Of a stretch of DNA of 64,000 bases, positions 16,661 to 60,800 are shown one piece after another. The stretch is from the NCBI GenBank assembly GCA_024403455.1, contig JAKSRR010000007.1, positions 44,495 to 108,494 of the forward strand. Reading direction: 5' to 3'. Both the position numbers and the translations under genes were made by a program. The notes beneath the pieces are model-generated. The model was not told the origin of the DNA, did no database searches, and worked only from the letters and a program-made list of their open reading frames with translations. Source of the DNA: Lachnospiraceae bacterium (GTDB taxonomy: Bacteria; Bacillota; Clostridia; Lachnospirales; Lachnospiraceae). Position 1 is the first letter of the stretch. Every line of letters starts with the position of its first letter.

Positions 16661-17677
16661 ATGGCAAAGATTGGTGTTGTTGGTGCAGGCAGCTGGGGTA
16701 TTGCTTTGGCCGTACATTTGGCAGATAAAAAAGGACATGCAGTAAAGGTATGGTCCTGTATCGGTGCAGAAATCGATATGTTAAATGAAAAGCGGGAGCA
16801 TGTAGATAAACTCCCTGGCGTTAAGCTTTCGGAAAATATTTCCTTTACTAAGGATTTGGCAGAGTCCATTATGGGTATGGACTTAGTCATTCTCGCTGTT
16901 CCCAGTGTGTTTACCAGAAGCACAGCAAAGCAGATGAAGGAGTTTGTGGAAGCAGGACAGATTATTCTTTCTGTTGGTAAAGGAATTGAAGAGAATAGCT
17001 TAAAGATCCTTACGGAAGTGATTAAGGATGAGATTCCACAGTGTGAGACAGCAGTTTTGTGTGGGCCGTCTCATGCAGAAGAGGTTGGACGTGGATTACC
17101 GACAACCATTGTTGCTGGATCTACCAAGAAAGCAGTAGCAGAGAAAGTTCAGATGCTGTTTCATGCAGATACGCTGCGTGTATATATTTCTCCGGATGTT
17201 CTCGGCATGGAACTTGGCGGAGCACTAAAGAATGTTATTGCTTTAGCCGCAGGAATCAGTGACGGACTGGGCTTTGGAGACAATACGAAGGCAGGACTGA
17301 TTACCAGAGGAATCGCAGAGATTACCAGATTAGGAATCGCCATGGGCGGTAAGGCTGAAACTTTTTATGGCCTGACCGGTATTGGGGATTTGATTGTTAC
17401 CTGTGATAGTTTGCACTCCAGAAACCGTAAGGCAGGCTTTTTGATGGGACAGGGAAAAACCATGCAGGAAGCAATGGATGAAGTTAAAATGGTGGTTGAA
17501 GGCGTTTACAGTGCAAAGGCAGCGAAAGCCCTGGCGGATAAGTATGGGGTTGAGATGCCGTTGGTTGATTGTGTAAATAGTGTGCTTTTTGGCGGTGTTT
17601 CCGCGAAAGAGGCAGCCACGGCACTAGTAAGAAGAGATTCAAAACCAGAACATGAAGTATTAGAGTGGACCGAATAA
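16661..17677 (+). CDS. gpsA: NAD(P)H-dependent glycerol-3-phosphate dehydrogenase
   Basis: Reduces dihydroxyacetone phosphate to sn-glycerol-3-phosphate for phospholipids. The 338-residue protein opens with the dinucleotide-binding motif GVVGAGSWGIALAVHLA and carries the catalytic lysine region ELGGALKNVIALAAGISDGLG. The TGIGDLIVTCDSLHSRNRKAG block is also diagnostic. It lies 14 bases after plsY with an AAGGGG site. Confidence 0.97.
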   Translation: MAKIGVVGAGSWGIALAVHLADKKGHAVKVWSCIGAEIDMLNEKREHVDKLPGVKLSENISFTKDLAESIMGMDLVILAVPSVFTRSTAKQMKEFVEAGQIILSVGKGIEENSLKILTEVIKDEIPQCETAVLCGPSHAEEVGRGLPTTIVAGSTKKAVAEKVQMLFHADTLRVYISPDVLGMELGGALKNVIALAAGISDGLGFGDNTKAGLITRGIAEITRLGIAMGGKAETFYGLTGIGDLIVTCDSLHSRNRKAGFLMGQGKTMQEAMDEVKMVVEGVYSAKAAKALADKYGVEMPLVDCVNSVLFGGVSAKEAATALVRRDSKPEHEVLEWTE

Positions 17678-44119: not shown

Positions 44120-44148
44120 TTTACAAAAATGGGCGTAAGGTTTAGAAT
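44120..44148 (+). promoter_or_regulatory. promoter of carAB
   Basis: TTTACA at 44120-44125, 17 bases, TAGAAT at 44143-44148. The predicted start near 44155 is about 10 bases before the ANTAR-like hairpin. Confidence 0.65.
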
Positions 44149-44164
44149 ATCTCTAATATATGGA

Positions 44165-44213
44165 AAGACAAAGGCGTCTTGAAGAAAGCTTTCTTCAAGA
44201 CGCGATTTTTTTT
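44165..44213 (+). promoter_or_regulatory. ANTAR-type hairpin overlapping a terminator, carA leader
   Basis: AAGAC (44165-44169), loop AAAGGC, GTCTT (44176-44180): a 5-bp stem with a hexaloop having A1 and G4. The last loop bases and the 3' arm are also the start of the terminator's 5' arm, GCGTCTTGAAGAAAG (44174-44188), which pairs perfectly with 44189-44203 and is followed by eight T. The two folds exclude each other. Stabilising the small hairpin would allow read-through into carA at 44230. Confidence 0.75.
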
Positions 44214-44229
44214 CTGAAAGGTGACAAAC

Positions 44230-45336
44230 ATGAGCGAAAAAAAGCGAAAAAAAATCATTTTGGAAGATGGTACCGAGTTTGTAGGAACTGGATTTGGCGC
44301 GGACAAAGAGATTATTACGGAGTTCGTTTTTAATACATCCATGGTAGGATACCAGGAAATATTGTCGGATCCATCCTATACTGACCAAATGGTAGTGATG
44401 ACCTATCCGCTAATTGGTAATTATGGTATGAACGATGATGATTATGAATGCAAGCATCCGTCCATTTCTGGAATGATTGTCAGAGATTATAATGATGAAC
44501 CAAGTAACTGCCGATGCACTGAGTCTTTAGATAGTGTTATGAAAAGATTTGGCATTGTGGGTATTGAGGGTATTGATACAAGAAAAATGACAAGACACCT
44601 TCGCGATATTGGTAGCTGTCTTGGAATCATTACAGAGGAAAACTGCAAAGTAGAGGAGGCTTTAGAAAAAATAAAAGCTTATCAGGTACCTCATGATGCA
44701 GTGCAGAGAGTGAGTACAAAAGAAATCTATACCATGGGAAAGAAAGAAGAAAGTTCTTACCATGTTGTTGCCATTGACTGTGGCATGAAGGAAAATATTC
44801 CCCGTATGATGGTGCAGAAGGGATGCTTTGTTACGATTGTTCCCTGGGACACTAGTGCAGAAGCTATACTGAACATGAAACCGGATGGAGTCTTTGTTTC
44901 CAATGGACCTGGAGATCCTCAGGATGTGACTGCGACTATAAAAACATTGAAAGATCTGCAGGGTAAAATCCCTGTTTTTGGCATTTGCCTAGGACATCAG
45001 ATGATTTCCCTTTCCTATGGAGCGGAAACCTATAAATTAAAATTTGGTCATCGTGGTGGTAATCATCCAGTAAAGAATCTTCTATCAGATAAGATTGAAA
45101 TTACTTCTCAGAATCATTCCTATGCTGTAAAAGACGAGAGTGTTCTGAATACAGCACTTGAAGTTACCCATGTAAATTTATTAGATAACACAATAGAAGG
45201 TGTACGATGCCAGAAAGACTATGTGGCTTCCGTGCAGTATCATCCAGAAAGCGCACCTGGTCCGCAGGACAGTGCTTATCTTTTTGATGTGTTTACAGAA
45301 TTAATGAATAGCTGGAAGGAGAAGAAAAATGCCTAA
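44230..45336 (+). CDS. carA: carbamoyl-phosphate synthase, small (glutaminase) subunit
   Basis: Supplies ammonia from glutamine to CarB for pyrimidine and arginine synthesis. The 368-residue protein has the N-terminal CarA domain ([13 protein letters not shown]) and a class I amidotransferase domain with nucleophile in FGICLGHQM and HPESAPGP. The ATG at 44230 is preferred over a GTG three codons upstream because AAAGGTG then sits at the right distance. The last 8 bases overlap carB. A terminator and small hairpin in the leader suggest nitrogen-dependent attenuation. Confidence 0.95.
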
Positions 45337-48300
45337 ACGTACAGACATTCATAAAATCCTTGTTATTGGATCTGGCCCCATTGTCATTGGTCAGGCCGCA
45401 GAATTTGACTATGCAGGAACCCAGGCATGTCTTGCTCTGAGAGAAGAGGGATATGAGGTTATTTTGTGTAATAGTAACCCTGCGACCATTATGACAGATG
45501 AGACCATTGCAGATAAAGTGTATATGGAACCATTGACGCTTGAGTTCATCGCGAAAATTATTCGTATGGAAAGACCGGATGCCATTCTGCCCGGTATCGG
45601 TGGTCAGACAGGTCTTAACCTTGCCATGCAGTTAGAGAGAAAGGGCGTTCTTAAGGAATGTGGCGTGGAACTTCTTGGTACAGATATAGAGAGTATCGAC
45701 CAGGCAGAAGATAGAGAACTGTTCAAAGAACTGTGCCAGTCTTTGGGAGAGCCAGTACTTCCTTCTCTAATCGCAGAGAGCATGGAAGAAGGCGTACAGG
45801 CAGCTACCGAAATCGGTTATCCTGTAGTGGTTCGTCCGGCATTTACCTTAGGCGGAACCGGTGGTGGTTTTGCTGATGATGAAAAAGAATTAAAAGAAAT
45901 CCTAAAGAATGCCCTGGTACTTTCTCCGGTGCATCAGGTATTAATTGAGAAAAGTGTAAAGGGCTATAAGGAAATAGAGTATGAAGTAATGCGTGATGCT
46001 AATGATACAGCAATCACCATTTGTAATATGGAGAACTTAGATCCTGTTGGTATTCATACGGGTGACTCCATCGTAGTCTGCCCTTCCCAGACAATTACCA
46101 ACAAGGCATATCATATGCTTCGAGATAGTGCACTGAAGATTATTCGCGCATTAAAAATTAAGGGTGGTTGCAATGTGCAGTTTGCACTTGATCCGAAGTC
46201 CTTCCAGTATTATTTGATTGAGGTAAACCCTAGAGTTTCCCGTTCTTCTGCGCTTGCATCCAAAGCCAGTGGCTATCCTATAGCCAGAGTTTCTGCAAAG
46301 ATTGCAGTCGGTCTTAGACTAGATGAGATTTCACTTGCTAATACTTTGGCAAGTTTTGAGCCCGCGCTAGACTATGTCGTTACCAAGATGCCTAGATTCC
46401 CCTTTGATAAGTTCTATGATGCCAACAATTCTCTTGGCACCCAGATGAAGGCTACTGGTGAATGTATGAGCGTCGGTCGTACATTTGAAGAGAGTTTGTT
46501 AAAGGCGATTCGTTCCTTGGAAATTGGTGTTTATCACCTTTATAGCGCTAAGTTTGATGAATATTCCAATGAACAGCTCATGGACTACATAAAGATTGGA
46601 ACGGATGACCGAATCTATGCTATTGCGGCTCTTCTTCGAGAGAAGGTTTCGGTAGATGAGATTTCTTTAGTTACGGGAATTGATTTATTCTTCCTGCGTA
46701 AACTGAGAAATATTATTGATATGGAAGAAGTCATTAAGGCAAATCCCGAGAATCAGGAGATTTTGGCAAAAGCAAAGAAAATGGGATTCTCCGACAAAGA
46801 GATTGCTTATCTGTGGAATAGGACCCAGAGAGAAATTTTTGATCTTAGAAAGGAATTAAATTTATTCCCTGTATACAAGATGATTGACACCTGCGCGTCT
46901 GAGTTTGAGAGTTATATTCCATACTTCTACTCTACTTATGAAGAGGAGAACGAAAGCATTATCGGTGATAAAAAGAAGATTATTGTATTAGGCTCAGGTC
47001 CTATTCGTATCGGACAGGGTGTTGAGTTTGACTATTCCACCGTCCATGCAGTAAAGACTATCAAAGAAGCCGGCTATGAGGCAATCATTATCAATAACAA
47101 TCCGGAGACAGTATCCACGGATTATACAACCTCAGATAAGCTGTACTTCGAACCACTTTGCGTGGAAGATGTTATGAATATCATTGAGATGGAAAAGCCG
47201 GAAGGTGTAATTGCCATTTTAGGTGGTCAGACTGCCATCAATTTGGCAAAACCGTTAAAAGAGTATGGTGTAACCATCATTGGTACAGACTGCGATGCTA
47301 TTGACAGAGCGGAAGACAGAGACCAGTTTGAACATCTTTTGGAAGAACTAGAGATTCCGCAGCCTAAGGGTGTGGCGGTTACCAATATCGAGGATGGCGT
47401 GAAAGCCGGTAATGATATAGGATATCCTGTTCTTGTTCGTCCCAGCTTCGTACTTGGTGGTAGAGCGATGCAGATTGTTTCGAAGGAAGCAGATATGCGT
47501 CATTATTTGAAAACGGCGGTAGAAGTAGATGCGGATAAGCCAGTACTTGTAGATCGTTATATTAAGGGTAAAGAAGTAGAAGTGGATGCCATCTGTGATG
47601 GTCACAATGTATTTGTTCCTGGCATCATGGAACTGGTTGAAAGAACGGGCGTACACTCTGGTGACTCCATTAGCGTATATCCGCCCTTCAGTATCTCCAA
47701 CAAGGTGAAAGGAACCATCCTTCGATATGCAAAGAAGTTAGGCCTTGGTATTGGTATTGTGGGACTCTTTAACATTCAGTTCATTGTGGATGAAAAGGAA
47801 AATGTTTATATCATTGAGGTAAATCCCAGATCCTCCAGAACGGTACCATTCCTTTCTAAAGCTACAGGTTATCCTCTGGCAGATATTGCGACGCTGGCAA
47901 TCCTTGGCGTATCGCTGAAGGAGCAGGGCATTATGGAATTGTATCCTGATGAGAGAGACAGCTGGTATGTAAAGGCACCTGCTTTCTCATTCTCCAAATT
48001 AAAGGGTATGGATGCCTATCTTTCTCCGGAGATGAAGTCTACCGGTGAAGCCATCGGTTATGATAAGACTTTCCCCAGAGCGATGTTTAAGGCGCTTACG
48101 GCAAGTGGAATGAAACTGCAGAATTATGGAACGGTTTTAGTTACCCTTGCAGATGAGGATAAGGATGAGGCGCTTCCGCTTGTAAGAAGATTCTACAACA
48201 TGGGATTTAATATTGAAGCGACCATTGGTACAGCGGAGCATTTAAAAGAGCATGGCATTCGATGCCGTATTCGTAGAAAACTCAGTGAAGGTAGTGAGGA

Positions 48301-48508
48301 AGTACTGGAAGCCATTCGCGCAGGCTATGTAAGCTATGTGATTAATACCAGAGCAATCCTTTCCGGTATTCATTATGGTGATGGTGTAGCCATCAGAAGA
48401 TGTGCTATGGAAAATAATGTAACGACATTTACTTCCTTAGATACAGTAAAAGTATTGCTTGATGTGTTAGAAGAACAGACCATTCGTGTTGCCCCCATTT
48501 TTAACTAA
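45329..48508 (+). CDS. carB: carbamoyl-phosphate synthase, large subunit
   Basis: Makes carbamoyl phosphate from bicarbonate, ammonia and two ATP. The 1059-residue protein has the expected duplicated ATP-grasp halves: [17 protein letters not shown] near the start and [16 protein letters not shown] near 553, each with VRPAFTLGG or VRPSFVLGG. The C-terminal MGS-like allosteric domain starts near 935. It is translationally coupled to carA by an 8-base overlap. No other pyr biosynthetic gene is adjacent. Confidence 0.97.
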
Positions 48509-48522
48509 AGGAGTGAATTCTT

Positions 48523-49941
48523 ATGAGTATTCATGAAGAGTGTGGCGTATTTGGTGTCATGAGCAAAGAACCCTGCAACTTAGCTAGTATGATGTACTAT
48601 GGTTTGTATGCTCTGCAGCATAGAGGGCAGGAGAGCTGTGGCATTGTCGTAAATGATGATGGTGTATTTCATTCCTACAAGGATATGGGGCTTGTTAGTG
48701 AAGTCTTTACAGGAGACAGATTAAAGACATTTCCAGAGGGAAAGATTGCAGTTGGTCATGTGCGTTATGGAACCACGGGAGCAACCACCAGAAATAACTG
48801 TCAGCCCATCGAGGTGAATCATAAAAAAGGAAAGATGGCATTAGCCCACAATGGAAACTTAAGTAATGCCCTAGAACTTAGGGATACTTTAGAATCCTCC
48901 GGTGCTATTTTTAGCTCCACCAGTGATACGGAGACCATTGCTTATATTATTACTAGAAGACGATTAGAAACCAGCAGTATTGAAGATGCTGTAAGTGCTG
49001 CGCTTCCTTCTTTAGAGGGTGCATACTCCTTAGTATTGATGTCCTCTACGAAAATGATTGCAGTACGTGACCCCAGAGGCTTCAGACCACTATGCTATGG
49101 CATTACCCAGGACGGTAGCTACGTGGTTGCTTCCGAAAGTTGTGCCCTAACTGCTGTTGGAGCAGAGTTTGTAAGAGATGTGGAACCGGGAGAAATCATT
49201 ATCTTTTCAGAGCATGGCGTGGAGACCAGAAAAGAGCATTGTAAGACAAAAGATAAGCGCACCTGTATTTTTGAACATATCTATTTTGCTAGACCAGATT
49301 CTGTGATTGATGGTGTGTCCGTACATGAAGCTAGAGTGCAGGCGGGAAAGATTTTGGCAAGGACCTATCCCGTGGAAGCAGATGTGGTCATCGGTGTTCC
49401 TGACAGCGGACTAGATGCAGCGCTTGGTTATGCTATGGAATCCGGTATTCCTTATGAAATCGGATTGATTAAAAATAAATATATTGGGCGAACCTTTATT
49501 GCGCCGGGACAGGATAAACGTTTCGATCAGGTGAAGATTAAACTGAGTCCGGTAAATCCGGTGCTGGCGGGCAAAAGAGTGGTACTCATTGATGATTCCA
49601 TTGTTAGAGGAACTACCAGTAAGCGAATTGTAAAACTGCTGCGAGATGCTGGTGCGAAGGAGATACATATCCGTATTTCAGCCCCTGCGTTCTTACATCC
49701 TTGCTACTATGGAACGGATATTGATTCTGAGGAGAATCTGATTGCGAACCACCACAGTACTCCAGAGATTGCAGAAATCCTTGGAGCAGATTCCTTAGGA
49801 TTTCTCCCGTTAGAAGATTTGCCAGAACTGCTTGGCGGATCTGATAAGTACTGTAGTGCCTGCTTTGATGGAAAGTATCCTACGACGATTCCTACGGATA
49901 CGAGAAAAGATCGTTTTGAAGGAAAAATTAAAAAATCATAA
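48523..49941 (+). CDS. purF: amidophosphoribosyltransferase
   Basis: First committed step of purine synthesis, using glutamine and PRPP. The 472-residue protein has its class II amidotransferase cysteine in EECGVFGV (Cys7, after a six-residue leader that is probably removed) and a PRPP loop VVLIDDSIVRGTTSKR. Cysteines in RTCIFEHIYFARPDS, HPCYYGTD and CSACFDG match the four [4Fe-4S] ligands of the Bacillus-type enzyme, which is oxygen-sensitive. It follows carB by 14 bases with AAAGGAGTG and is probably co-transcribed. Confidence 0.96.
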   Translation: MSIHEECGVFGVMSKEPCNLASMMYYGLYALQHRGQESCGIVVNDDGVFHSYKDMGLVSEVFTGDRLKTFPEGKIAVGHVRYGTTGATTRNNCQPIEVNHKKGKMALAHNGNLSNALELRDTLESSGAIFSSTSDTETIAYIITRRRLETSSIEDAVSAALPSLEGAYSLVLMSSTKMIAVRDPRGFRPLCYGITQDGSYVVASESCALTAVGAEFVRDVEPGEIIIFSEHGVETRKEHCKTKDKRTCIFEHIYFARPDSVIDGVSVHEARVQAGKILARTYPVEADVVIGVPDSGLDAALGYAMESGIPYEIGLIKNKYIGRTFIAPGQDKRFDQVKIKLSPVNPVLAGKRVVLIDDSIVRGTTSKRIVKLLRDAGAKEIHIRISAPAFLHPCYYGTDIDSEENLIANHHSTPEIAEILGADSLGFLPLEDLPELLGGSDKYCSACFDGKYPTTIPTDTRKDRFEGKIKKS

Positions 49942-49949
49942 AAAAGTTG

Positions 49950-49978
49950 TTGACAAAACAAAAAGAAGTGATTATTAT
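49950..49978 (+). promoter_or_regulatory. promoter of glnN
   Basis: TTGACA at 49950-49955, 17 bases, TATTAT at 49973-49978; start near 49985. The transcript has a leader of about 195 bases. Confidence 0.8.
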
Positions 49979-49998
49979 ATTTGCATATGAGGCAAAGG

Positions 49999-50036
49999 CG
50001 CCGCAGGAATGATTGTTTCTGTGGCGTATTTTTTTT
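49999..50036 (+). terminator. first terminator in the glnN leader
   Basis: An 11-bp stem (49999-50009 with 50016-50026, several G-T pairs) has loop TGATTG and is followed by TATTTTTTTT. It lies directly after the glnN promoter start, so it acts on the leader as well as on purF read-through. Confidence 0.75.
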
Positions 50037-50057
50037 GAAAAGTAGATCAGATGGCGG

Positions 50058-50143
50058 TTCTGCAATGGTGCAGGAATCTGAGAATAATATTTTTTGCACA
50101 ATGGCGTGTATGTTCAAACAGGGACATACACGTTTTTATTTTT
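50058..50143 (+). promoter_or_regulatory. two-hairpin ANTAR antitermination element, glnN leader
   Basis: Hairpin P1: TTCTGC (50058-50063), loop AATGGT, GCAGGA (50070-50075). Hairpin P2: TGCAC (50095-50099), loop AATGGC, GTGTA (50106-50110). Both hexaloops have A1 and G4, the signature of ANTAR RNA targets. The terminator CGTGTATGT (50105-50113) with ACATACACG (50124-50132) and TTTTTATTTTT shares the whole 3' arm of P2. This is the full textbook layout: P1, linker, P2 overlapping the terminator. Confidence 0.88.
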
Positions 50144-50181
50144 AAAACATTTTATTAACACATAAACAGGAGGTAGTTGTT

Positions 50182-52278
50182 ATGACAATGAATGTACCGG
50201 AACTTTTCGGATGCAAGGTATTCAACGATGCTGTTATGAAAGAGCGTCTTCCTAAGGATACCTACAAGGCATTAAAGAAGACCATTGATGAAGGTACCCA
50301 TTTACAACTCGATGTTGCTAACGTTGTTGCACATGCAATGAAGGATTGGGCAACAGAGCAGGGTGCTACCCACTTTACCCACTGGTTCCAGCCTATGACC
50401 GGTATCACTGCAGAGAAGCATGATTCCTTCATCAGCCCTGAAGCAGGTGGAAAGGTAATCATGAGCTTTTCCGGTAAGGAACTTGTAAAAGGTGAGCCTG
50501 ATGCATCTTCCTTCCCTTCTGGTGGACTTCGTGCTACCTTCGAAGCAAGAGGATATACAGCATGGGATCCTACTTCTTATGCATTCATCAAGGATGACAC
50601 CTTATGCATTCCTACAGCATTTTGCTCTTACTCTGGTGAAGCACTGGATAAGAAGACTCCACTTCTTCGTTCTATGCAGACTCTTGATAAGTCCGCAGTA
50701 AGAGTTCTTAAACTTTTTGGAAATAATGATGTTAAGAGAGTTATTACCACTGTTGGTCCTGAGCAGGAATACTTCTTGGTAGATCAGGAAGTTTATAACA
50801 AGCGTCCTGACTTGATTTATACAGGAAGAACCTTATTTGGAGCAAAGCCTCCTAAGGGACAGGAACTGGAAGATCACTATTTTGGAACCATTAAGGCAAG
50901 AGTTTCCGCTTATATGAAGGAACTTGATGAGGAACTTTGGAAGCTTGGTATTCTTGCTAAAACCAAACATAATGAGGTGGCACCGGCACAGCATGAGTTA
51001 GCACCCATTTTCTCAACAACCAATATTGCAACAGATCATAACCAGCTGACCATGGAGCTGATGAAGACCATCGCTGCTCGTCATGGTATGGCTTGCCTCC
51101 TACATGAAAAGCCGTTTGCCGGTGTTAATGGTTCTGGTAAGCACAATAACTGGTCCATTTCCACGGACACAGGCATGAACCTGTTAGAGCCAGGTGATAC
51201 TCCTTCCAGAAATGCACAGTTCTTATTATTCCTTACTGCAGTTATTAAGGCAGTAGATGATTATCAGGAACTTCTTCGTGTATCTGTTGCCTCTGCAGGT
51301 AATGATCACAGACTTGGTGCAAATGAGGCACCTCCGGCAATTATCTCTGTATTCTTAGGAGACGAATTAGAGGGCGTTGTAGAGTCCATCGTAAATGGTA
51401 CCGATTATCATGATAAGGAAAAGAAACTCATGAGCATTGGTGCAACGGTACTTCCTCACATTCCTCAGGATACCACCGATAGAAACAGAACTTCACCTTT
51501 TGCATTTACTGGTAATAAGTTCGAGTTTAGATCTCTTGGTTCCTCCGCATCTATTTCAGGACCGAACATTGTATTAAATACAATTGTTGCAGAAGTACTT
51601 GATCAGTTTGCTGATGAATTAGAGAAGGCAAGTGATTTCGATAAGTCCTTAAATGAACTTGTTAGAAGAGAGCTTACTGCACATCAGAGAATTATCTTCA
51701 ATGGTAATGGATATGCAGGCGAATGGGTAGCAGAAGCAGAAAAGAGAGGCTTATCAAATCTTAAGTCTACTGTAGATGCACTTCCCGCATTCATTTCTGA
51801 GAAAGCAATTGATGTATTTACGAAGCATGAAGTTTTCTCAAAGACCGAGCTTCATAGCCGTTATGAGATTATGTTAGAGAACTACTCTAAGGTAATTAAT
51901 ATTGAAGCGCTTACCTTAATTTCTATGGTTAAGAAAGATATTATGGCTGCAGCATGCTGCTATGAATATAAGCTTGCTAAGACCTTAAATGAGAAGAAGG
52001 CAACAGGACTTCTTCCTATCAATAAGGTAGAAGAGAACCAGTTCAAGAATGCTGATAAGCTGGTGGATAGCTTGGCAGACAAGTTAGAGAAGCTTGAGAG
52101 TGCAGTAGAGAAGGCTTCTGAGATTGAAGATGTTTGTGAACTTGCTAAATATCACAGAGAAGTCATCTTCGAAGATATGAATGCACTTAGAGAGGTTGTA
52201 GATGCATTAGAGGTTATTGTACCTAGCAAGCTCTGGCCTTATCCTACTTACGGAGAGATTCTTTACTCTGTTAAGTAA
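50182..52278 (+). CDS. glnN: glutamine synthetase type III
   Basis: Makes glutamine from glutamate, ammonia and ATP. At 698 residues it belongs to the large GSIII class rather than GSI (about 440-470). It begins [12 protein letters not shown], has the GSIII block THWFQPMTG, and shares catalytic core pieces: [37 protein letters not shown] and [22 protein letters not shown] precedes the ATG. Its expression is predicted to depend on antitermination in a long leader carrying two terminators. Confidence 0.96.
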
Positions 52279-52346
52279 TTTATAGAATAATTATCATGAT
52301 ACACAAAGGGGTGTATGTTTCTAGAAAAGAAGCATACACCCCTTTT
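52276..52346 (+). promoter_or_regulatory. ANTAR-type hairpin overlapping a terminator, amt leader
   Basis: P2-like hairpin ATACAC (52299-52304), loop AAAGGG, GTGTAT (52311-52316). The terminator AAAGGGGTGTATG (52305-52317) pairs with CATACACCCCTTTT (52333-52346) and so shares loop and 3' arm. A weaker P1 candidate, TAATT (52276-52280) with AATTA (52289-52293), has ATAGAA in its loop with a T-T mismatch. No separate promoter is evident, so it may gate read-through from glnN into the ammonium channel gene. Confidence 0.65.
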
Positions 52347-52372
52347 GTAATAAATCGAAAGGAGAAACGATT

Positions 52373-54151
52373 ATGGAAGAGATTTTTGAGTTTATGCAAA
52401 ATCAGACATTCGGCGTATGGTTCTTAATCGGTGCCGCGCTGGTATTCTGGATGCAGGCAGGTTTTGCTATGGTGGAGGCTGGTTTTACCAGAGCAAAGAA
52501 TACCGGTAACATCATCATGAAGAACCTCATGGACTTCTGTATCGGTACGGTAACATTCATTGTGATTGGTTTTTCACTTTTACTTGGTGAGGACTTAATC
52601 GGATTTATTGGAAAACCTGGTTTTGATATTTTCACAGCATATCCTCAGTTTGCAGAGGATGGAATGCTTAGCCAGTTTGTATTTAACTTAGTATTCTGTG
52701 CAACCACAGCAACCATCGTATCTGGTGCTATGGCAGAGCGTACAAAGTTCTTATCTTATTGTATTTATTCTGCTATTATTTCTGGTCTCATCTATCCTAT
52801 TGAAGCACATTGGATTTGGGGTGGTGGTTGGCTTAGCCAGCTTGGCTTCCATGATTTTGCTGGTTCCTGCGCAATCCATATGGTTGGTGGTACCTGCGCA
52901 TTAATCGGTGCAAAGATGTTAGGTGCTCGTATTGGTAAGTTCAGCAAAGACAAGAATGGCAAAGTTGTAAAAGTTAACGCAATTCCTGGACACAACATTA
53001 CTATCGGTGCACTTGGATGCTTTATCTTATGGTTTGGCTGGTATGGATTTAATGGTGCAGCTTGTACTTCCGTAGAATCCTTAGGATCTGTATTCTTAAC
53101 CACTACGGTTGCTCCTGCAATTGCAACAGTTGTATGTATGATCTTTACCTGGATCAAATATGGTAAGCCTGATGTATCTATGTGTTTGAACGCATCTCTT
53201 GCAGGTCTTGTAGCAATTACTGCACCTTGTGATGTTGTAGATGGTGTTGGTGCAATCGTAATCGGTGCTGTAGCTGGTTTACTGGTATGCTTCGGTGTAT
53301 GGTTCCTTGATTATGTACTTCATATTGATGACCCTGTTGGTGCAGTTGCAGTACATTTCATGAATGGTATCTGGGGTACCTTGGCAGTTGGTTTATTTGC
53401 TACCGGAACCACTCCTGACTATGCAATTGCTGATGCAAACGGCGTTACCATGACTGGTCTTTTCTATGGCGGTGGTGCAAAGCTTCTTGGCCTTCAGGCA
53501 CTTGGTCTTGTTACGGTAATGGCATGGGCAGCTGTAGCAATTATCATTACCTTCGCAATTATCAAAGCAACGGCTGGACTTAGAGTTTCTGAAGAGGAAG
53601 AAATTACTGGTCTTGATTCTACAGAACATGGTTTAGCTTCTGCTTACGCAGGCTTCTCCATCATGGATATCTCTGATAACACCATGTCAGTTAATGAAAA
53701 TACGGATCTTGGTGTAGTTGATTTTGAAAGTGCTAGCCAGAAGGTGAAGGAAGCAGCGGTACCTGTGGTAAATGCAACTACGGTAGCAACAGCAACAGGT
53801 ATTTACAAGGTTGTTATTATTGCTAAACTATCTCGCTATGATAAACTTCGTAAGGCTATGAACGAGCTTGGTGTAACCGGTATGACCGTAACACAGGTTA
53901 TGGGCTGCGGTGTGCAGAAGGGTGCCGGCGAGAAGTACCGTGGTGTCGAGATGGATGCTACCTTACTTCCTAAGATTAAGGTTGAGGTTGTTGTAAGCAA
54001 GATTCCTGTAGAGGAAGTAATCGAAGCAGCTAAGAAGACTCTTTATACTGGTCACATCGGCGATGGAAAGATTTTCGTATACGATGTAGCTAAGGTTGTA
54101 AAGGTAAGAACCGGCGAAGAGAACTTCGAGGCATTACAGGACGTAGAATAA
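52373..54151 (+). CDS. ammonium transporter fused to a PII (GlnK-like) domain
   Basis: A 592-residue membrane protein. Residues about 1-410 are an Amt channel: WFLIGAALVFWMQAGFAMVEAG, GGWLSQLGFHDFAGSCAIHMVGG and HFMNGIWGTLAVGLFATG carry the conserved pore histidines and aspartate. After a linker, residues about 476-592 form a PII domain: YDKLRKAMNELGVTGMTV, CGVQKGAGEKYRG (T-loop with the conserved Gln) and TGHIGDGKIFVY, the B-loop. In free GlnK this domain plugs the channel according to ATP, ADP and 2-oxoglutarate; here it is tethered. The tyrosine uridylylated in E. coli GlnB/GlnK (AEY) is replaced (VEM). GAAAGGAG precedes the ATG. Confidence 0.93.
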   Translation: MEEIFEFMQNQTFGVWFLIGAALVFWMQAGFAMVEAGFTRAKNTGNIIMKNLMDFCIGTVTFIVIGFSLLLGEDLIGFIGKPGFDIFTAYPQFAEDGMLSQFVFNLVFCATTATIVSGAMAERTKFLSYCIYSAIISGLIYPIEAHWIWGGGWLSQLGFHDFAGSCAIHMVGGTCALIGAKMLGARIGKFSKDKNGKVVKVNAIPGHNITIGALGCFILWFGWYGFNGAACTSVESLGSVFLTTTVAPAIATVVCMIFTWIKYGKPDVSMCLNASLAGLVAITAPCDVVDGVGAIVIGAVAGLLVCFGVWFLDYVLHIDDPVGAVAVHFMNGIWGTLAVGLFATGTTPDYAIADANGVTMTGLFYGGGAKLLGLQALGLVTVMAWAAVAIIITFAIIKATAGLRVSEEEEITGLDSTEHGLASAYAGFSIMDISDNTMSVNENTDLGVVDFESASQKVKEAAVPVVNATTVATATGIYKVVIIAKLSRYDKLRKAMNELGVTGMTVTQVMGCGVQKGAGEKYRGVEMDATLLPKIKVEVVVSKIPVEEVIEAAKKTLYTGHIGDGKIFVYDVAKVVKVRTGEENFEALQDVE

Positions 54152-54215
54152 AATCTAAATACAGACTTTACAAAATAGTGTCGTTGTAGTATCCTATCTA
54201 TATTATATTTGTAGA

Positions 54216-54272
54216 GAACAATGGCGTTCGAAGACTTGGGGGAATACCCGAGGGCTTCGGACGCCAATTTTT
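54216..54272 (+). promoter_or_regulatory. ANTAR-type hairpin overlapping a terminator, glnA leader
   Basis: GAAC (54216-54219), loop AATGGC, GTTC (54226-54229). The terminator TGGCGTTCGAAG (54222-54233) pairs with CTTCGGACGCCA (54255-54266), inner CTTGGG with CCCGAG, then TTTTT. Four loop bases and the 3' arm are shared, so the folds exclude each other. The loop is identical to that of glnN P2. A P1 candidate around 54169-54188 (loop AGTGTC) needs a bulge and is uncertain. Confidence 0.75.
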
Positions 54273-54290
54273 ATGACAAGGGAGTCATTC

Positions 54291-55541
54291 ATGGAGAATT
54301 ACACGATTGAAGAAGTTTTATCTTTTGTAGAGGAAAATGATGTCAAGTTTATTCGCTTGGCATTTTGTGATATTTTTGGAAATCAGAAAAATATATCCAT
54401 TATGCCCCAGGAGTTACGTGTGGCATTAACGGAAGGAATTAATTTTGCTCCCTTCTTAATTCTTGGATATGATGATCCGGCTTATCAGGATTTATATTTA
54501 AAGCCCGATCCGGGTACATTATCTGTGCTCCCTTGGAGACCTCAGCAGGGTAGAGTAATTCGTTTCTACTGCGATGTTGTTACCCCAGAGGGAGAGCCAT
54601 TTCCCTATGATGCAAGAAAGTTTTTACAGGATACTCTGCAGGAATGTGCAGACTTGGGATTTTCCTGCCGTATTGGATTAAAGAGTGAGTTTTACTTATT
54701 TAAGACGGATGAAGAGGGAAGACCCACCAACATCCCCTGGGATGAAGGAAGTTACATGGATATTTCGCCTTTAGACCGTGGTGAAAATATTCGAAGAGAA
54801 ATCTGTCTATGTCTGGAAGAAATGGGAATTCAGCCTAAGGAATCTCACCATGAAATCGGACCAGGACAGAATGAGATTGATTTTAAAACCTCAGATGCAT
54901 TAGGAACGGCAGATAATTATATTACCTATAAGAATGTTGTTGGTGCGATTGCCAGCCGAAATGGTGTGTTCGCATCCTTTGCACCAAAGCCGTTAAAAGG
55001 AAAGAGCGGAAACGGACTGCATATGGAAATCTCTACCTGGAAGGGTGGCGTAAATATGGATGATATTGATCCAAAGTTTACGGAGAGTTTCATGGCAGGT
55101 GTATTCCACCGTATGAAAGACATTACGCTTTTCCTAAATACACAGGTGGAATCCTATGAAAGATTTGGAGAGAATGAAGCTCCTAAATATATCACCTGGT
55201 CGGCACAGAACAGATCGAGATTGCTTAGGGTTCCCATTGTGCATGGAAAGAGAACCTGCTTCATCCTCAGATCTCCAGATTCGGGAATTAATCCGTATCT
55301 TGCCTTTGCCATGGTTATTCAGGCAGGACTTGCTGGTGTAAGAGGAAAAGAAACACTTCCAGAACCTTTGGATGTATCCAGCAGACGCGCTTCGGCAGAA
55401 GCTATGAGTAAGTTTGAAAAACTTCCAGAATCACTCAAAGCAGCGGTGGAGTATGCAAAGAATAGTGCATTCATAAACAGTGATCCCATTAAGGATATTG
55501 CAAGTCATTTCATTGAAGTAATTGAGCAGAACAGACTATAA
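54291..55541 (+). CDS. glnA: glutamine synthetase type I
   Basis: A 416-residue GSI-family enzyme, somewhat shorter than usual. It has the N-terminal FIRLAFCDIFGNQKNISI, the ATP/glutamate-site blocks GLKSEFYLFK, HHEIGPGQNEIDFKTSDAL and GNGLHMEIS, and ITWSAQNRSRLLRVP followed by RSPDSGINPYLAFAM. The ATG at 54291 has AAGGGAG at good distance; an in-frame ATG at 54273 directly abuts the terminator T tract. Second glutamine synthetase in the cluster. The ANTAR regulator gene follows 35 bases later, probably in the same message. Confidence 0.9.
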   Translation: MENYTIEEVLSFVEENDVKFIRLAFCDIFGNQKNISIMPQELRVALTEGINFAPFLILGYDDPAYQDLYLKPDPGTLSVLPWRPQQGRVIRFYCDVVTPEGEPFPYDARKFLQDTLQECADLGFSCRIGLKSEFYLFKTDEEGRPTNIPWDEGSYMDISPLDRGENIRREICLCLEEMGIQPKESHHEIGPGQNEIDFKTSDALGTADNYITYKNVVGAIASRNGVFASFAPKPLKGKSGNGLHMEISTWKGGVNMDDIDPKFTESFMAGVFHRMKDITLFLNTQVESYERFGENEAPKYITWSAQNRSRLLRVPIVHGKRTCFILRSPDSGINPYLAFAMVIQAGLAGVRGKETLPEPLDVSSRRASAEAMSKFEKLPESLKAAVEYAKNSAFINSDPIKDIASHFIEVIEQNRL

Positions 55542-55576
55542 GTTCTATCAATATGTGCAGTGAAAGGGGCTTGACT

Positions 55577-56143
55577 ATGAGCAAAGCATTATTAGTATGT
55601 GATACGCCAAAAGGCGTTGAGTACTACAGGGATTTCCTAATGCAAAGTGAATACGAAGAGATAACGGTAGCGGATAATGCAGAGGAAGCAAAACGTAAAG
55701 TTGCAGAATTTGATTTTGATGTTTGCCTTATCAACTCCCCCATTAGAAACAGCAGTGGTGAGCATCTGGCAATAGATATTGCAGAGAAAAATATTTGTCA
55801 GGTAATTCTGTTTGTTAAAGCAGAGTACCAGGATGAGATAACAGAGCGAGTAGAAGATTTTGGTGTCATCACCGTTGGAAAACCAATTAACAAGCAGCTG
55901 TTCTGGGGAGCGTTAAAGTTAGCAAAGGTAACCCAAAGACGAATGGCGATGGTGCAGAAGGAAACAAGAAAACTGCAGACAAAGCTAGAAGATTTAAAAC
56001 AGGTTTCAAGAGCAAAATGCTTACTAATCTCTTATGAAGGGATGAGTGAGGAAGAAGCTCACAAATATATAGAAAAAAAGGCCATGGATGAAAGATTAAG
56101 TAGAATCGACGTGGCAAAGGATATTATCAATCAGTATGGTTAA
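55577..56143 (+). CDS. ANTAR-domain RNA-binding antiterminator with degenerate receiver
   Basis: A 188-residue regulator of the AmiR/NasR/EutV type. Residues 1-115 are a receiver-like fold, a coiled-coil linker spans about 118-142, and 143-188 are the ANTAR three-helix domain (RAKCLLISYEGMSEEEAHKY, then IEKKAMDERL). ANTAR proteins bind paired hairpins with A1/G4 hexaloops and prevent terminator formation. In the receiver Asp9 and Lys102 are kept, but the phospho-acceptor position is Asn53 (DFDVCLINSP) and the usual Thr/Ser near 81 is missing, so classic phosphorylation is unlikely. No kinase gene is nearby. It sits in the middle of five candidate target leaders. The start is the ATG at 55577 after GAAAGGGG. 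Confidence 0.9.
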   Translation: MSKALLVCDTPKGVEYYRDFLMQSEYEEITVADNAEEAKRKVAEFDFDVCLINSPIRNSSGEHLAIDIAEKNICQVILFVKAEYQDEITERVEDFGVITVGKPINKQLFWGALKLAKVTQRRMAMVQKETRKLQTKLEDLKQVSRAKCLLISYEGMSEEEAHKYIEKKAMDERLSRIDVAKDIINQYG

Positions 56144-56167
56144 TGCTTAGGCAGAATAGAGGATAAC

Positions 56168-57763
56168 ATGATAAAGCATGTATTTGTAACAGGCGGTGTA
56201 GTATCAGGCCTTGGAAAAGGAATTACAGCAGCATCTTTAGGAAGACTTCTTAAGCAGAAGGGCTATAAGGTTGCGTCTCAGAAACTGGATCCCTATATGA
56301 ATGTTGATCCTGGCACCATGAGCCCCTACCAGCATGGAGAAGTTTTCGTTACCGAGGATGGTGCTGAAACAGACCTTGACCTTGGTCACTATGAGAGATT
56401 CATCGATGAGAATCTGAATAAGTACTCTAACCTTACCAGCGGAAAGGTGTACTGGAATGTATTAAACAGAGAAAGACAAGGTGAGTATTTAGGACAGACG
56501 GTACAGGTTATTCCGCATATCACAGAAGAAATCAAACATTTCATCAATATGGGGGCTGAAAGCTCTGGAGCAGATGTTCTGATTACGGAAATCGGTGGAA
56601 CCATTGGTGATATTGAAAGTCAGCCGTTCATTGAGGCTATTAGACAGATTGCTATTGAAAAGGGCAGGGAAAACTGTTGCTTCATCCATGTTACCTTGGT
56701 ACCATGGCTATCGGGTTCGGATGAACATAAGAGTAAGCCTACCCAGCATTCCGTGAAGGAACTGCAGTCCTTAGGAATTGCGCCCAATGTGATTGTATGT
56801 CGTGTAGACAGACCATTAGAGCGTGGAATCATGGATAAGATTTCGCTGTTCTGCAATGTTCCGAAGGATTGTGTTATTGAAAACAGCACCATGGAATGTC
56901 TGTATGAAGCACCATTAATGCTTCATCAGAATGGTTTGGATAAGGTAGTATGCAGACATCTTGGATTAAAAGATGATGAACCGGATATCAGAGACTGGGA
57001 GAGCATGATTTCCAAGATTCAGGGATTATCCAAGCAGGTAACCATCGGTATTGTTGGAAAATATGTAGCATTACATGATGCGTACTTGTCCGTGCGAGAG
57101 TCCCTTCTCCATGGTGGCTATGACTGTGGTGCCCATGTAGAGATTGCTTGGATTGACAGTGAGGAAATCACAAAGGATAATGTAGAAGAAAAGTTACAGA
57201 ACTTAGATGGTATTTTGGTTCCTGGCGGCTTTGGCGATAGAGGTGTGGAAGGAAAGATTCTTGCCTGTGAATATGCAAGAACAAAGAATATTCCTTACCT
57301 TGGAATCTGTCTAGGTATGCAAGTGGCAGCCATTGAATTTGCTAGAAATGTTTGTGGTTATGCGGATGCAAATTCAGGTGAGTTCCTGCCAGAGGGTGAG
57401 CATCTTGTCATAGACCTCATGGAAGAACAAATGAAGGTACACAGAAAAGGTGGTACCATGCGTCTTGGAGCTTATCCCTGCAAAATCAAGGAGGGTACAC
57501 AGTTAGCTAGTGCCTATGGGAATTTGGAAATTTCTGAAAGACATAGACATAGATATGAGTTTAATAACGAATATCGTGATATAATGGTAGAGAAAGGGCT
57601 TACCATTTGCGGTACCAGTCCTGATGAAAGTATTGTGGAAGCGGTGGAAGTATCTGGAAACAGATTCCATGTTGGCGTACAGTTCCATCCAGAATTTAAG
57701 TCTAGACCCAATAAGCCACATCCACTGTTTGCAGCATTTGTAAAAGCAAGCGCAAACGTATAG
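56168..57763 (+). CDS. pyrG: CTP synthase
   Basis: Makes CTP from UTP, ATP and glutamine. The 531-residue protein has the synthase domain ([34 protein letters not shown]) and a class I amidotransferase domain with the nucleophile in [10 protein letters not shown] and [11 protein letters not shown]. It begins 24 bases after the ANTAR gene. It shares the cluster's common substrate, glutamine. Confidence 0.97.
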
Positions 57764-57782
57764 AAAAGTAATTTAATATCGT

Positions 57783-57842
57783 AATGCAATGGGGCATTTT
57801 GATTCTTCACCTGTGGTGAGGTTTCAAAATGCCCCATTTTTA
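57783..57842 (+). promoter_or_regulatory. ANTAR-type hairpin overlapping a terminator, gltB leader
   Basis: AATGC (57783-57787), loop AATGGG, GCATT (57794-57798). The terminator ATGGGGCATTTTG (57789-57801) pairs perfectly with CAAAATGCCCCAT (57825-57837), followed by TTTTT. Five of six loop bases and the 3' arm are shared. No clear P1 was found, and no separate promoter was seen in the 128-base gap, so it may gate read-through from pyrG into gltB. Confidence 0.75.
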
Positions 57843-57891
57843 TAAAACAGAATGCATGAAAATGCAGGATGAAGAAAGCGAGGAAGAAATT

Positions 57892-60800
57892 ATGCAAAGT
57901 CAGCAAACAAAGAACTTAGGCCTTTACAGACCGGAATTTGAACATGATAACTGCGGTATCGGTGCCGTTGTTAGCATGAAGGGCATAAAGACACATCAGA
58001 CCGTTTCTGACGCTCTTAGTATTGTAGAGAACTTGGAGCATAGAGCCGGTAAGGATGCAGAAGGAAAGACTGGTGATGGTGTTGGTATTCTTCTGCAAAT
58101 TTCCCATAAGTTTTTTGCTGCTGTTACAAAGGAACTTGGAATTAAGATTGGTAAGGAAAGAGAGTATGGTATTGGTATGTTCTTCTTTCCACAGGATGAG
58201 ATAAAGAGAACTCAGGCTAAGAAGATGTTTGAAATCATTACCCAGAAGGAAGGTCTTGAATTCCTTGGCTGGAGAGAAGTACCCATTAAACCAGAGGTAC
58301 TTGGTAAGAAAGCTGTAGACTGCATGCCTTGCATCATGCAGGGGTTTGTTAAGAAGCCGGCTAATATTGAAAAGGGTCTCTCTTTTGACAGAAGATTATA
58401 TGTTGTAAGACGAGTTTTTGAACAGACCTGTGATAATACCTATGTATGCTCTTTATCCAGCCGTACCATCGTATATAAGGGTATGTTCTTGGTTGGACAG
58501 CTTCGTACCTTCTTTGCTGATCTTCATAATGAATCCTATGAATCTGCCATTGCTATCGTGCATTCCAGATTCTCCACCAATACGAACCCTTCCTGGGAGA
58601 GAGCGCATCCGAACCGCTTTATTGTTCATAACGGTGAGATTAACACCATTAAGGGTAATGCAGACCGTATGCTTTCCCGTGAAGAAACCATGTACTCTGA
58701 CTTCTTAAAGGATGAGTTATCTAAGATTACCCCTGTGGTAAATACCAATGGTTCTGACTCGTCCATGCTTGATAATACCTTAGAGTTCTTAGTAATGAAT
58801 GGACTTCCTCTGCCTCTTGCAGTAATGTTAACCATTCCTGAACCTTGGGCAAACAATACAGCTATGAGCCAGGAGAGAAGAGACTTTTATCAGTATCATG
58901 CAACGATGATGGAGCCTTGGGACGGCCCTGCATCCATCCTCTTCTCGGATGGTGATATTATGGGTGCGGTTCTTGACCGTAATGGTCTTCGTCCATCCAG
59001 ATACTATGTAACCAATGATGATTATTTAATCTTATCTTCTGAAGTTGGTGTACTTCCTATTGCAGAAGAAAGAATTAAGTTAAAGGATCGTTTAAAACCC
59101 GGTAAGATGCTTTTAGTTGACCTTGTAAAGGGGCGTCTCATTGAGGATGAAGAATTAAAGACAGAATATGCAACCAAGCAGCCTTATGGTGAGTGGCTTG
59201 ATAAGAATCTGATTCACTTAAAGGATTTAAAGATTCCTAACAAGCGTGTGCCTTCTCATAGTAAGGAAGAACGTGCAAAGCTGCAGAAGGCTTTTGGTTA
59301 TTCCTATGAAGATCTCACCACATCCATCCTTCCCATGGCATTAAATGGTGTAGAGGGAACAGATGCAATGGGTATCGATGTGCCTTTAGCAGTACTTTCT
59401 AATGAACATCAGCCGCTATTTAACTACTTTAAGCAGTTGTTTGCACAGGTTACCAACCCGCCTATCGACTCCATTCGAGAGAAGATTGTAACTGCTACTA
59501 CGATTTATCTTGGTAAGAGCGGAAACGTGTTGGAGGAAAAAGAAGAGAATTGTAAGATGCTTCGCATCAACAATCCTATTCTGACCACCACGGACCTTAT
59601 GAAGATTCGTAACATGAATGTGGAAGGCTTCAAGGTGGAAACCATTCCCATTACCTACTACAAGAATACTTCTTTAGAGAAGGCAATTGATCATCTGTTT
59701 GTTGAGGCAGACAGAGCACACAGAGATGGCGCAAATATTCTAATTCTTTCCGATAGAGGACTAGATGAGAATCATGTAGCGATTCCTTCCCTGCTTGCAG
59801 TATCTGCGCTTCAGCAGTATTTGGTACAGACCAAGAAGAGAACCAGCCTTTCTGTTATTTTGGAAAGTGGTGAACCCAGAGAGGTACATCATTTTGCAAC
59901 CTTACTAGGTTATGGTGCGTCTGCTATTAACCCTTATCTTGCACAGGAAAGTATTCAGGAATTAATTGATCTGAATATGTTAGATAAGGATTATTATGCA
60001 GCTGTCAGCGATTACAATGAGGCCATTATCGGTGGCATTATTAAGATTGCTTCTAAAATGGGTATTTCAACGATTCAGTCATACCAGGGTGCAAAGATTT
60101 TTGAGGCCATTGGTATCAGTGAATCTGTTGTAAACAAGTATTTCAAGGGTACGGTAAGCCGCATTGGTGGTATTGGCCTAGAGGATATTCAGAAGGATGT
60201 TGAAATGCAGCACAGCAAGGCATTTGATCCTCTAGCACTGCATACAGATGAAACGTTAGATAGCCGTGGTCTTCATAAGATGCGTAGTGGTAAGGAAGAG
60301 CACTTGTATAATCCTGAAACCATCCATTTACTGCAGTTAGCTACCAGAACAGGGGATTATAAGACCTTCAAGGAGTATACGGCATTAGTTGATAAAGAAG
60401 AGGCAGTAAGAAATCTGCGTGGTCTGTTAACCTTTAAACCTTCTAAGAAGAGTGTTTCTATTGATGAAGTAGAGTCTGTTGATTCTATTGTAAAACGTTT
60501 CAAGACCGGTGCAATGTCCTATGGTTCCATTTCAAAGGAAGCCCATGAGACGATGGCCATTGCGATGAACATGATTCACGGAAAGAGCAACTCCGGTGAG
60601 GGTGGTGAAGAAGAGGAAAGACTAACTGTTGGACCCGATGGAAAGAATCGTTGCTCTGCTATTAAGCAGGTTGCTTCTGGACGTTTTGGTGTTACCAGTA
60701 AGTATCTGGTTAGCGCAAAAGAAATCCAGATTAAGATGGCGCAGGGTGCAAAGCCTGGTGAGGGTGGTCATCTTCCTGGAAAGAAGGTATATCCTTGGAT

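Follow-up and report, generated by a model that had tools for sequence, protein, structure and literature searches.

A predicted NitR-type ANTAR nitrogen regulon in a Lachnospiraceae bacterium and the candidate single-hexaloop architecture of its leaders

The window analyzed here, a 64,000-nucleotide stretch of contig JAKSRR010000007.1 of a Lachnospiraceae bacterium (assembly GCA_024403455.1), carries on its plus strand the gene row glmS, carA, carB, purF, glnN, amt fused to P-II, glnA, a receiver-ANTAR gene, pyrG and gltB, in which the names given without a family search were read from the translated open reading frames (ORFs). Five leaders of this row (carA, glnN, amt, glnA and gltB) each contain a hairpin with a six-base loop (hexaloop), whose loop and 3' arm double as the 5' arm of an intrinsic terminator. 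Hairpin and terminator together are called a module below. Judged from the sequence, these leaders very likely belong to a nitrogen regulon controlled by an ANTAR protein of the NitR type. The published ANTAR target consists of two hairpins, P1 and P2, with a short linker, and covariance searches have been built on this two-hairpin motif (Ramesh 2012, PMC3369931). The features are listed in window positions. The module E-values are those of a covariance model that has the six window modules among its seeds, and the promoter scores come from a search for the best sigma-A-like match in the 150 bases upstream of each non-redundant module, with a score of 10 as the cut for a near-consensus promoter.

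44120..44148, plus strand: carA promoter-like site, TTTACA (44120-44125), 17-base spacer, TAGAAT (44143-44148); score 10.5, hairpin 16 bases away
44165..44213, plus strand: carA module, hairpin 44165-44180 (AAAGGC), terminator 44174-44203 and T-run; model E 1.7e-6
44230..45336, plus strand: carA, ORF, followed by carB and purF
49950..49978, plus strand: glnN promoter-like site, TTGACA-17-TATTAT; score 11.5, first hairpin 12 bases away
49991..50036, plus strand: glnN module 1, hairpin 49991-50002 (AAAGGC), terminator about 49998-50027 and T-run; model E 6.3e-4
50058..50075, plus strand: second glnN hairpin (AATGGT), read from the sequence, in the P1 position relative to module 2
50095..50143, plus strand: glnN module 2, hairpin 50095-50110 (AATGGC), terminator 50104-50133 and T-run; model E 2.7e-5
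50182..52278, plus strand: glnN, type III glutamine synthetase; GSIII_N E 8.9e-83
52299..52351, plus strand: amt module, hairpin 52299-52316 (AAAGGG), terminator 52305-52345, short T-run; model E 3.4e-5
52373..54151, plus strand: 592-residue protein joining an ammonium transporter and a P-II domain; Ammonium_transp and P-II matches
54167..54195, plus strand: glnA promoter-like site, TTTACA-17-TATCCT; score 9.5, under the cut of 10, hairpin 20 bases away
54216..54274, plus strand: glnA module, hairpin 54216-54229 (AATGGC), terminator 54222-54266; model E 3.4e-5
54273..55541, plus strand: glnA, type I glutamine synthetase; Gln-synt_C E 7.8e-77, start codon inside the ORF provisional
55577..56143, plus strand: nitR-like gene with receiver-like and ANTAR domains, 188 residues; ANTAR E 9.4e-16, Response_reg E 2.1e-7
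56168..57763, plus strand: pyrG, CTP synthase, ORF downstream of nitR
57783..57844, plus strand: gltB module, hairpin 57783-57798 (AATGGG), terminator 57788-57838; model E 8.5e-5
57892..62433, plus strand: gltB, large subunit of glutamate synthase; start put at 57892 by inference, the ORF as listed (57829-62433) beginning within the terminator

The six hairpins named in an earlier note on this DNA are all present as it described them, namely AAGAC-AAAGGC-GTCTT (carA), TTCTGC-AATGGT-GCAGGA and TGCAC-AATGGC-GTGTA (glnN), ATACAC-AAAGGG-GTGTAT (amt), GAAC-AATGGC-GTTC (glnA) and AATGC-AATGGG-GCATT (gltB), all with a C-G closing pair and the consensus C-AAWGGN-G. The count had missed GGC-AAAGGC-GCC at 49991-50002 in the glnN leader, which has a stem of three pairs and its own terminator, so that the total is seven hairpins forming six modules in the five leaders. 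In RNAfold the AATGGT loop of glnN shrinks to a four-base loop through an A-U pair. The consensus, thought less familiar in the earlier note, matches the already published ANTAR loop rule (A at position 1, G at position 4, C-G closure). When both strands of the window were scanned for A1/G4 hexaloop hairpins with a stem of at least 4 pairs that overlap a terminator, a limit under which the three-pair glnN module 1 falls, 14 hits were obtained. Five of them score at least 30, one per leader, the next best reaching 15.5, and none of 60 dinucleotide shuffles of the window gives a hit at this level (best 26), which bears out the claim that one hairpin per leader overlaps the 5' arm of a terminator. 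Six alternative loop patterns give 0, 1, 0, 0, 0 and 0 hits of at least 30 on the real window. The folding energies of the six modules are -1.6 to -4.4 kcal/mol for the hairpins and -16.8 to -34.9 kcal/mol for the terminators; with a weak hairpin and a strong terminator, termination would be the default and the hairpin could prevail only with help. An Rfam search of the window returned 0 matches, and thus no curated riboswitch family accounts for the leaders.

Relatives of the regulator were fetched as 22 named loci, plus matches in 41 of 60 genomes, and in many of these loci like modules precede glnN, amt, glnA, gltB and other genes. Alignment A1 comprises 28 of 32 candidate modules (L004 6782, L013 8661, L030 3422 and L037 3470 are omitted). 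In it 91% of the hairpin-stem cells and 94% of the terminator-stem cells are paired, against 64% and 69% after shuffling, percentages that are inflated by the pairing-requiring scan with which the rows were picked. The compensatory changes are still informative, and the covariation scores are 0.77 for the hairpin stem and 0.71 for the terminator stem, against 0.22 in the shuffles of each; slid controls for both stems are far lower. Columns 17-19 of the alignment vary on both sides in both stems, as is expected if one strand serves two helices of a switch. Together with the matches of the covariance model, this gives a favourable outcome to the check on conservation and covariation in relatives that had been proposed for the hairpins.

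The modules also go together with ANTAR genes. In the class sample, 60 of 293 genomes (own included) have a module at E 3e-4, distributed as 57 among the 156 that have an ANTAR match and 3 among the 137 that lack one (Fisher 5e-15); among the 60 genomes of the relatives a module occurs at E 0.001 in 26/44 ANTAR and 1/16 non-ANTAR genomes (p 2.7e-4), all such p-values being made too small by shared ancestry. At E 0.01 the relatives give 34 of 60 genomes (own included) with a model match, 31/44 with and 3/16 without an ANTAR gene. The lists of module and ANTAR genomes were matched by eye. The three module-bearing class genomes without an ANTAR match are G092, G094 and G096, and one of these exceptions (L222), whose hairpin stem has a single pair, is probably spurious. 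Covariation, conservation and this co-occurrence support the reading of the leaders as a putative ANTAR antitermination regulon that the earlier note had put forward.

The ANTAR gene at 55577, reported to lie in the cluster, indeed codes for an ANTAR domain (E 9.4e-16) and is the sole match of the assembly (E 4.5e-16), which is estimated to be 82% complete. Aligned to EutV (PDB 6wsh), on whose residues the numbering was mapped in this analysis, the window protein has Asn in place of the phospho-acceptor Asp. The alignment takes one ANTAR protein from each locus, 54 in all, and Asp is kept in only 4 rows, two of which show a single gene. Every row has Lys149 and Glu160, which Walshe 2022 (PMC8934654) names as RNA contacts, and 51 of the 54 have His for Tyr164, as AmiR does. 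A receiver that lacks the phospho-acceptor Asp makes control by a histidine kinase unlikely, and a partner protein or a ligand likelier. At 49 of the 51 loci glnA adjoins the regulator gene; it does not do so at L017, whose contig begins some 650 bases upstream, and at L040. This adjacency hints at control by glutamine synthetase itself, which is known for TnrA in Bacillus (PMC6316151); the gene neighbourhood would allow the guess that either glutamine synthetase or the P-II domain is the controlling partner. As a separate observation, the window protein is 57-64% identical to ANTAR proteins of Pseudobutyrivibrio, and the better matches in genomes labelled as the same genus reach only 32-34%; the nitrogen island may have moved, or the genus label may be broad.

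The position of the hairpin relative to the promoter was analyzed in two sets of modules. The relatives set was drawn from 40 of 67 matches of a first listing (the 27 omitted are mirror-strand matches, one L078 duplicate (L038) and weaker ones, which include plausible glnA leaders of L012, L015 and L027) and from the 75 matches that a model search gave in other genomes, less one mirror match (74). Three sites of the own genome bring it to 117 modules, 112 with a stem of at least 3 pairs and 96 non-redundant with at least 60 bases upstream. Of the 89 rows listed for the class set, 5 from the own genome and 2 mirror matches were dropped; among the 82 kept, 78 have a stem of at least 3 pairs and 71 are non-redundant with at least 60 bases upstream. 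The two samples share a few genomes. A near-consensus promoter precedes 49/96 modules of the relatives set (4.6 in shuffled upstream sequence) and 60/71 of the class set (4.3 shuffled). The distance from the end of the -10 box to the hairpin is 5-13 bases in 34/96 modules of the former (0.44 shuffled), a range that was picked after inspecting this set, and in 33/71 of the latter (0.42 shuffled), which serves as replication. Pooled, 67 of the 109 leaders with a near-consensus promoter have the hairpin 5-13 bases past the -10 box. Transcription starts about 7 bases after the -10 box, and with this spacing the hairpin would therefore be formed by the very start of the RNA, so that a P1 would not fit ahead of it. 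In another 15 modules 14-30 bases separate the hairpin from the -10 box, and this interval contains no further hexaloop. The 27 strong-promoter modules more than 30 bases away have their first C-G-closed hexaloop within 14 bases in 16 cases and at 20-41 bases in 6, and the remaining 5 have none; such a first hairpin is in some cases a P1 and in others opens a series of two modules.

The sequence shows the hairpins and terminators, the overlap that makes them mutually exclusive, their conservation and covariation, the promoter spacing and the joint occurrence with ANTAR genes, and these observations support a common scheme. From them we infer the binding of NitR and read-through upon binding, as well as start sites, operons and signal. 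The free RNA would fold into the terminator, and transcription would end ahead of the gene. Active NitR would hold the hexaloop hairpin, so that the terminator cannot form, and read-through would lead to transcription of carAB-purF, glnN, amt-PII, glnA-nitR-pyrG and gltB. If glnA and nitR share one transcript, NitR would amplify itself. Most leaders of the group would use one hexaloop hairpin at the 5' end both as landing site and as antiterminator, a minority would have the published two-hairpin form, and some would have two modules in series. We assign a probability of roughly 0.8 to this reading, in which a single NitR-like ANTAR protein governs the nitrogen regulon, mostly through a single 5'-terminal hexaloop. 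The wider proposal is held with more reserve, though we lean towards it: that class-wide the natural ANTAR antiterminators are predominantly single hexaloops, each formed from the first bases of the transcript and read by a glnA-linked ANTAR protein with a non-phosphorylatable receiver, the first hexaloop (sole, first of a tandem, or P1) lying at the start site and its position at the 5' end replacing a recruiting hairpin.

ANTAR nitrogen regulons, antitermination by NitR and the loop consensus are already known. NitR of Clostridium saccharobutylicum is reported as an antiterminator of the glutamine synthetase and glutamate synthase (GS/GOGAT) genes under nitrogen limitation (PMC6316151), and the present system, likened to it through the description in that review only, likewise ties an ANTAR protein to genes of glutamine and glutamate synthesis; unlike the gene set reported there, it also has carAB-purF, amt-PII, glnN and pyrG in or near the regulon. 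The nitrogen targets given in Ramesh 2012 (PMC3369931) are P-II, ammonium transporters and the synthases for glutamate, glutamine and arginine, and these dual-hexaloop regulons share with the present modules the A1/G4 hexaloops and the overlap with intrinsic terminators. Their motif has two hairpins by definition, and deletion of P1 is reported to have impaired the induction of eutP (PMC3369931), whereas most modules here are single and at the putative 5' end of the transcript, a point unremarked in the earlier note. According to Walshe 2022 (PMC8934654), the minimal ANTAR motif is one hexaloop, yet P1 is required in vivo for EutV; single sites were expected in settings free of the deadline that a transcribing polymerase imposes, and the authors asked how widely such sites are used and called for more computational and experimental study of single-hexaloop motifs. 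The single sites here, contrary to that expectation, overlap terminators. EutV of Enterococcus faecalis has the same receiver-ANTAR layout but undergoes phosphorylation at Asp54 and depends on P1 in vivo (PMC8934654), unlike the Asn-bearing receiver and mostly single hairpins described here. AmiR (PDB 1qo0) is likewise a pseudo-receiver ANTAR protein with His at the position of EutV Tyr164, and differs in being controlled by AmiC and in its reported P1 leader (PMC3369936). The light-controlled ANTAR-type receptor NmPAL also binds single small RNA hairpins, although the uses described are engineered circuits (PMC11381354). No report of single-hexaloop nitrogen leaders was found in the open-access listings and passages searched; the part that appears to be new is the single-hexaloop 5'-terminal architecture as the common form among these modules, plus the serial form. 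The leaders offer many natural single-hexaloop terminator sites with clean promoters, on which the use of a single hexaloop becomes directly testable, and earlier searches based on two hairpins could have missed this class. The modules also suggest how a large group of anaerobes co-controls ammonium assimilation and the enzymes that consume glutamine.

Three other explanations have to be weighed. The classical model with two hexaloops could hold everywhere, the partner having been overlooked through a start farther upstream, an odd loop or a downstream location. NasR is reported to prefer two hairpins, and glnN module 2, alone among the six window modules, has the P1-P2 layout. In the 60 bases upstream, a C-G-closed P1 occurs above chance, in 6/96 and 5/71 modules (1.0 and 0.44 shuffled), yet these 11 of 167 are a small minority, and P1-like hairpins with any Watson-Crick closure (15/96 against 10.6 shuffled, 10/71 against 7.7) are not clearly above chance. 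Among the 66 pooled leaders whose hairpin lies no more than 13 bases from the -10 box, 13 have another hexaloop within 90 bases past the terminator (2.1 shuffled) and 3 have one inside the rest of the terminator (0.6 shuffled); 51 have neither, and a downstream partner, though above chance, was rejected as a general solution since it occurs only in a minority of leaders. With the 67 of 109 strong-promoter leaders that leave no room upstream if transcription starts at the predicted place, we regard the two-hexaloop model as doubtful. Ordinary attenuators worked by RNA alone, the ribosome or another protein, with the ANTAR gene adjacent by chance, are a good deal less probable still. Such attenuators would fit the modules of the three genomes lacking an ANTAR match and the many ANTAR genomes free of modules, and the binding of NitR is itself a prediction from sequence; the published ANTAR loop rule is obeyed by the loops, no Rfam family matches the window, and the association between modules and ANTAR genes is strong, with one of its three exceptions probably spurious. 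That the sites are simply terminators of the preceding genes, with hexaloop stems by chance, is very improbable. The amt and gltB modules do lie close behind the previous gene with no obvious promoter, but the left arm, dispensable for a terminator, changes in step with the right one and is not seen to vary freely in close relatives, near-consensus promoters stand immediately ahead of modules far above chance, and no shuffled window reaches the score.

Several points weigh against the single 5'-terminal hexaloop read by NitR, in addition to the inflated pairing percentages and the shared ancestry mentioned above. In the window only glnN module 1, at 12 bases, lies within 13 bases of a near-consensus promoter. 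The carA hairpin at 16 bases and the glnA hairpin at 20, the latter behind a weaker promoter, leave little room, and the sigma-A-like scan gave no convincing promoter for amt and gltB, which may be read from upstream. The first hairpin of the tandem leaders (13/66) could serve as a distant P1. Of the five measures taken on the hairpin stem, those for pairs changed on both sides and for additional pair types do not exceed the shuffles. NasR is reported to have bound a single hairpin about 12-fold more weakly than the pair. Finally, no module passes the cut-off in 99 of the 156 ANTAR genomes in the class sample; either some ANTAR proteins do not use this site or the search missed sites.

The predicted regulon may extend beyond the five leaders, as three more leaders of the own genome match the model. 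One (C35:17408, 17408-17453; L068 8409-8454; E 4e-5) precedes an operon-like row of a circularly permuted ATP-grasp and an Alpha-E gene, with citrate synthase farther on along the same strand, and the others are found at a class-III aminotransferase gene (C2:92372, E 0.0026) and at a family-3 solute-binding protein gene (C2:89752, E 0.031). Five weaker own-genome matches (E 0.9 to 8.5) were rejected; C33:42188, C13:44706 and C6:28490 form at most one hairpin pair, and C33:19142 and C9:64856 were set aside on their E-value without inspection. The first downstream ORFs were picked by a simple rule and classed by self-written N-terminal signatures, with tandem modules counting a gene twice and weak matches included, and on this basis 108 of 142 fall into nitrogen or glutamine classes and 34 are other. 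The classes are glnN (31), gltB-type amidotransferase (16), gltB (12), amt (11), glnK (7), glnA (7), asparagine-synthase-like (6), gdhA (5), purF (3), glmS (3), RidA (3), pyrG (2) and nifH (2). No module was found ahead of carA in the blast lists of the relatives' module-downstream genes, so carA may be a local direct target. Its place, with carB, in the regulon is supported by relatives in which both genes lie directly behind nitR (L018, L019, L027) or behind purF (L022, L023).

A few smaller observations concern individual leaders. In the window, a hairpin ATGAC-AAGGGA-GTCAT at 54273-54288, again with an A1/G4 loop, lies over the probable Shine-Dalgarno stretch of glnA directly past the terminator; the Pseudobutyrivibrio glnA leaders of L003 and L004 have no hairpin like it, and it may be due to chance. 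In Pseudobutyrivibrio a module 23-25 bases from the -10 box stands ahead of an asparagine-synthase-like gene (L004 2760-2819, L011 2777-2834, L013 2896-2954), and the stretch before it contains a conserved CAATGGA that forms no hexaloop hairpin. The targets behind the C35 leader are unexpected, and the first ORF behind the L194 module resembles the C35 citrate synthase by eye. This leader has a further upstream hairpin, with the loop AAAGAG, ahead of an apparent second terminator. The aminotransferase and solute-binding-protein leaders (L069, C2 of the own genome) have in common, upstream of the module, the sequence GGTGAAATTTTTACAAT.

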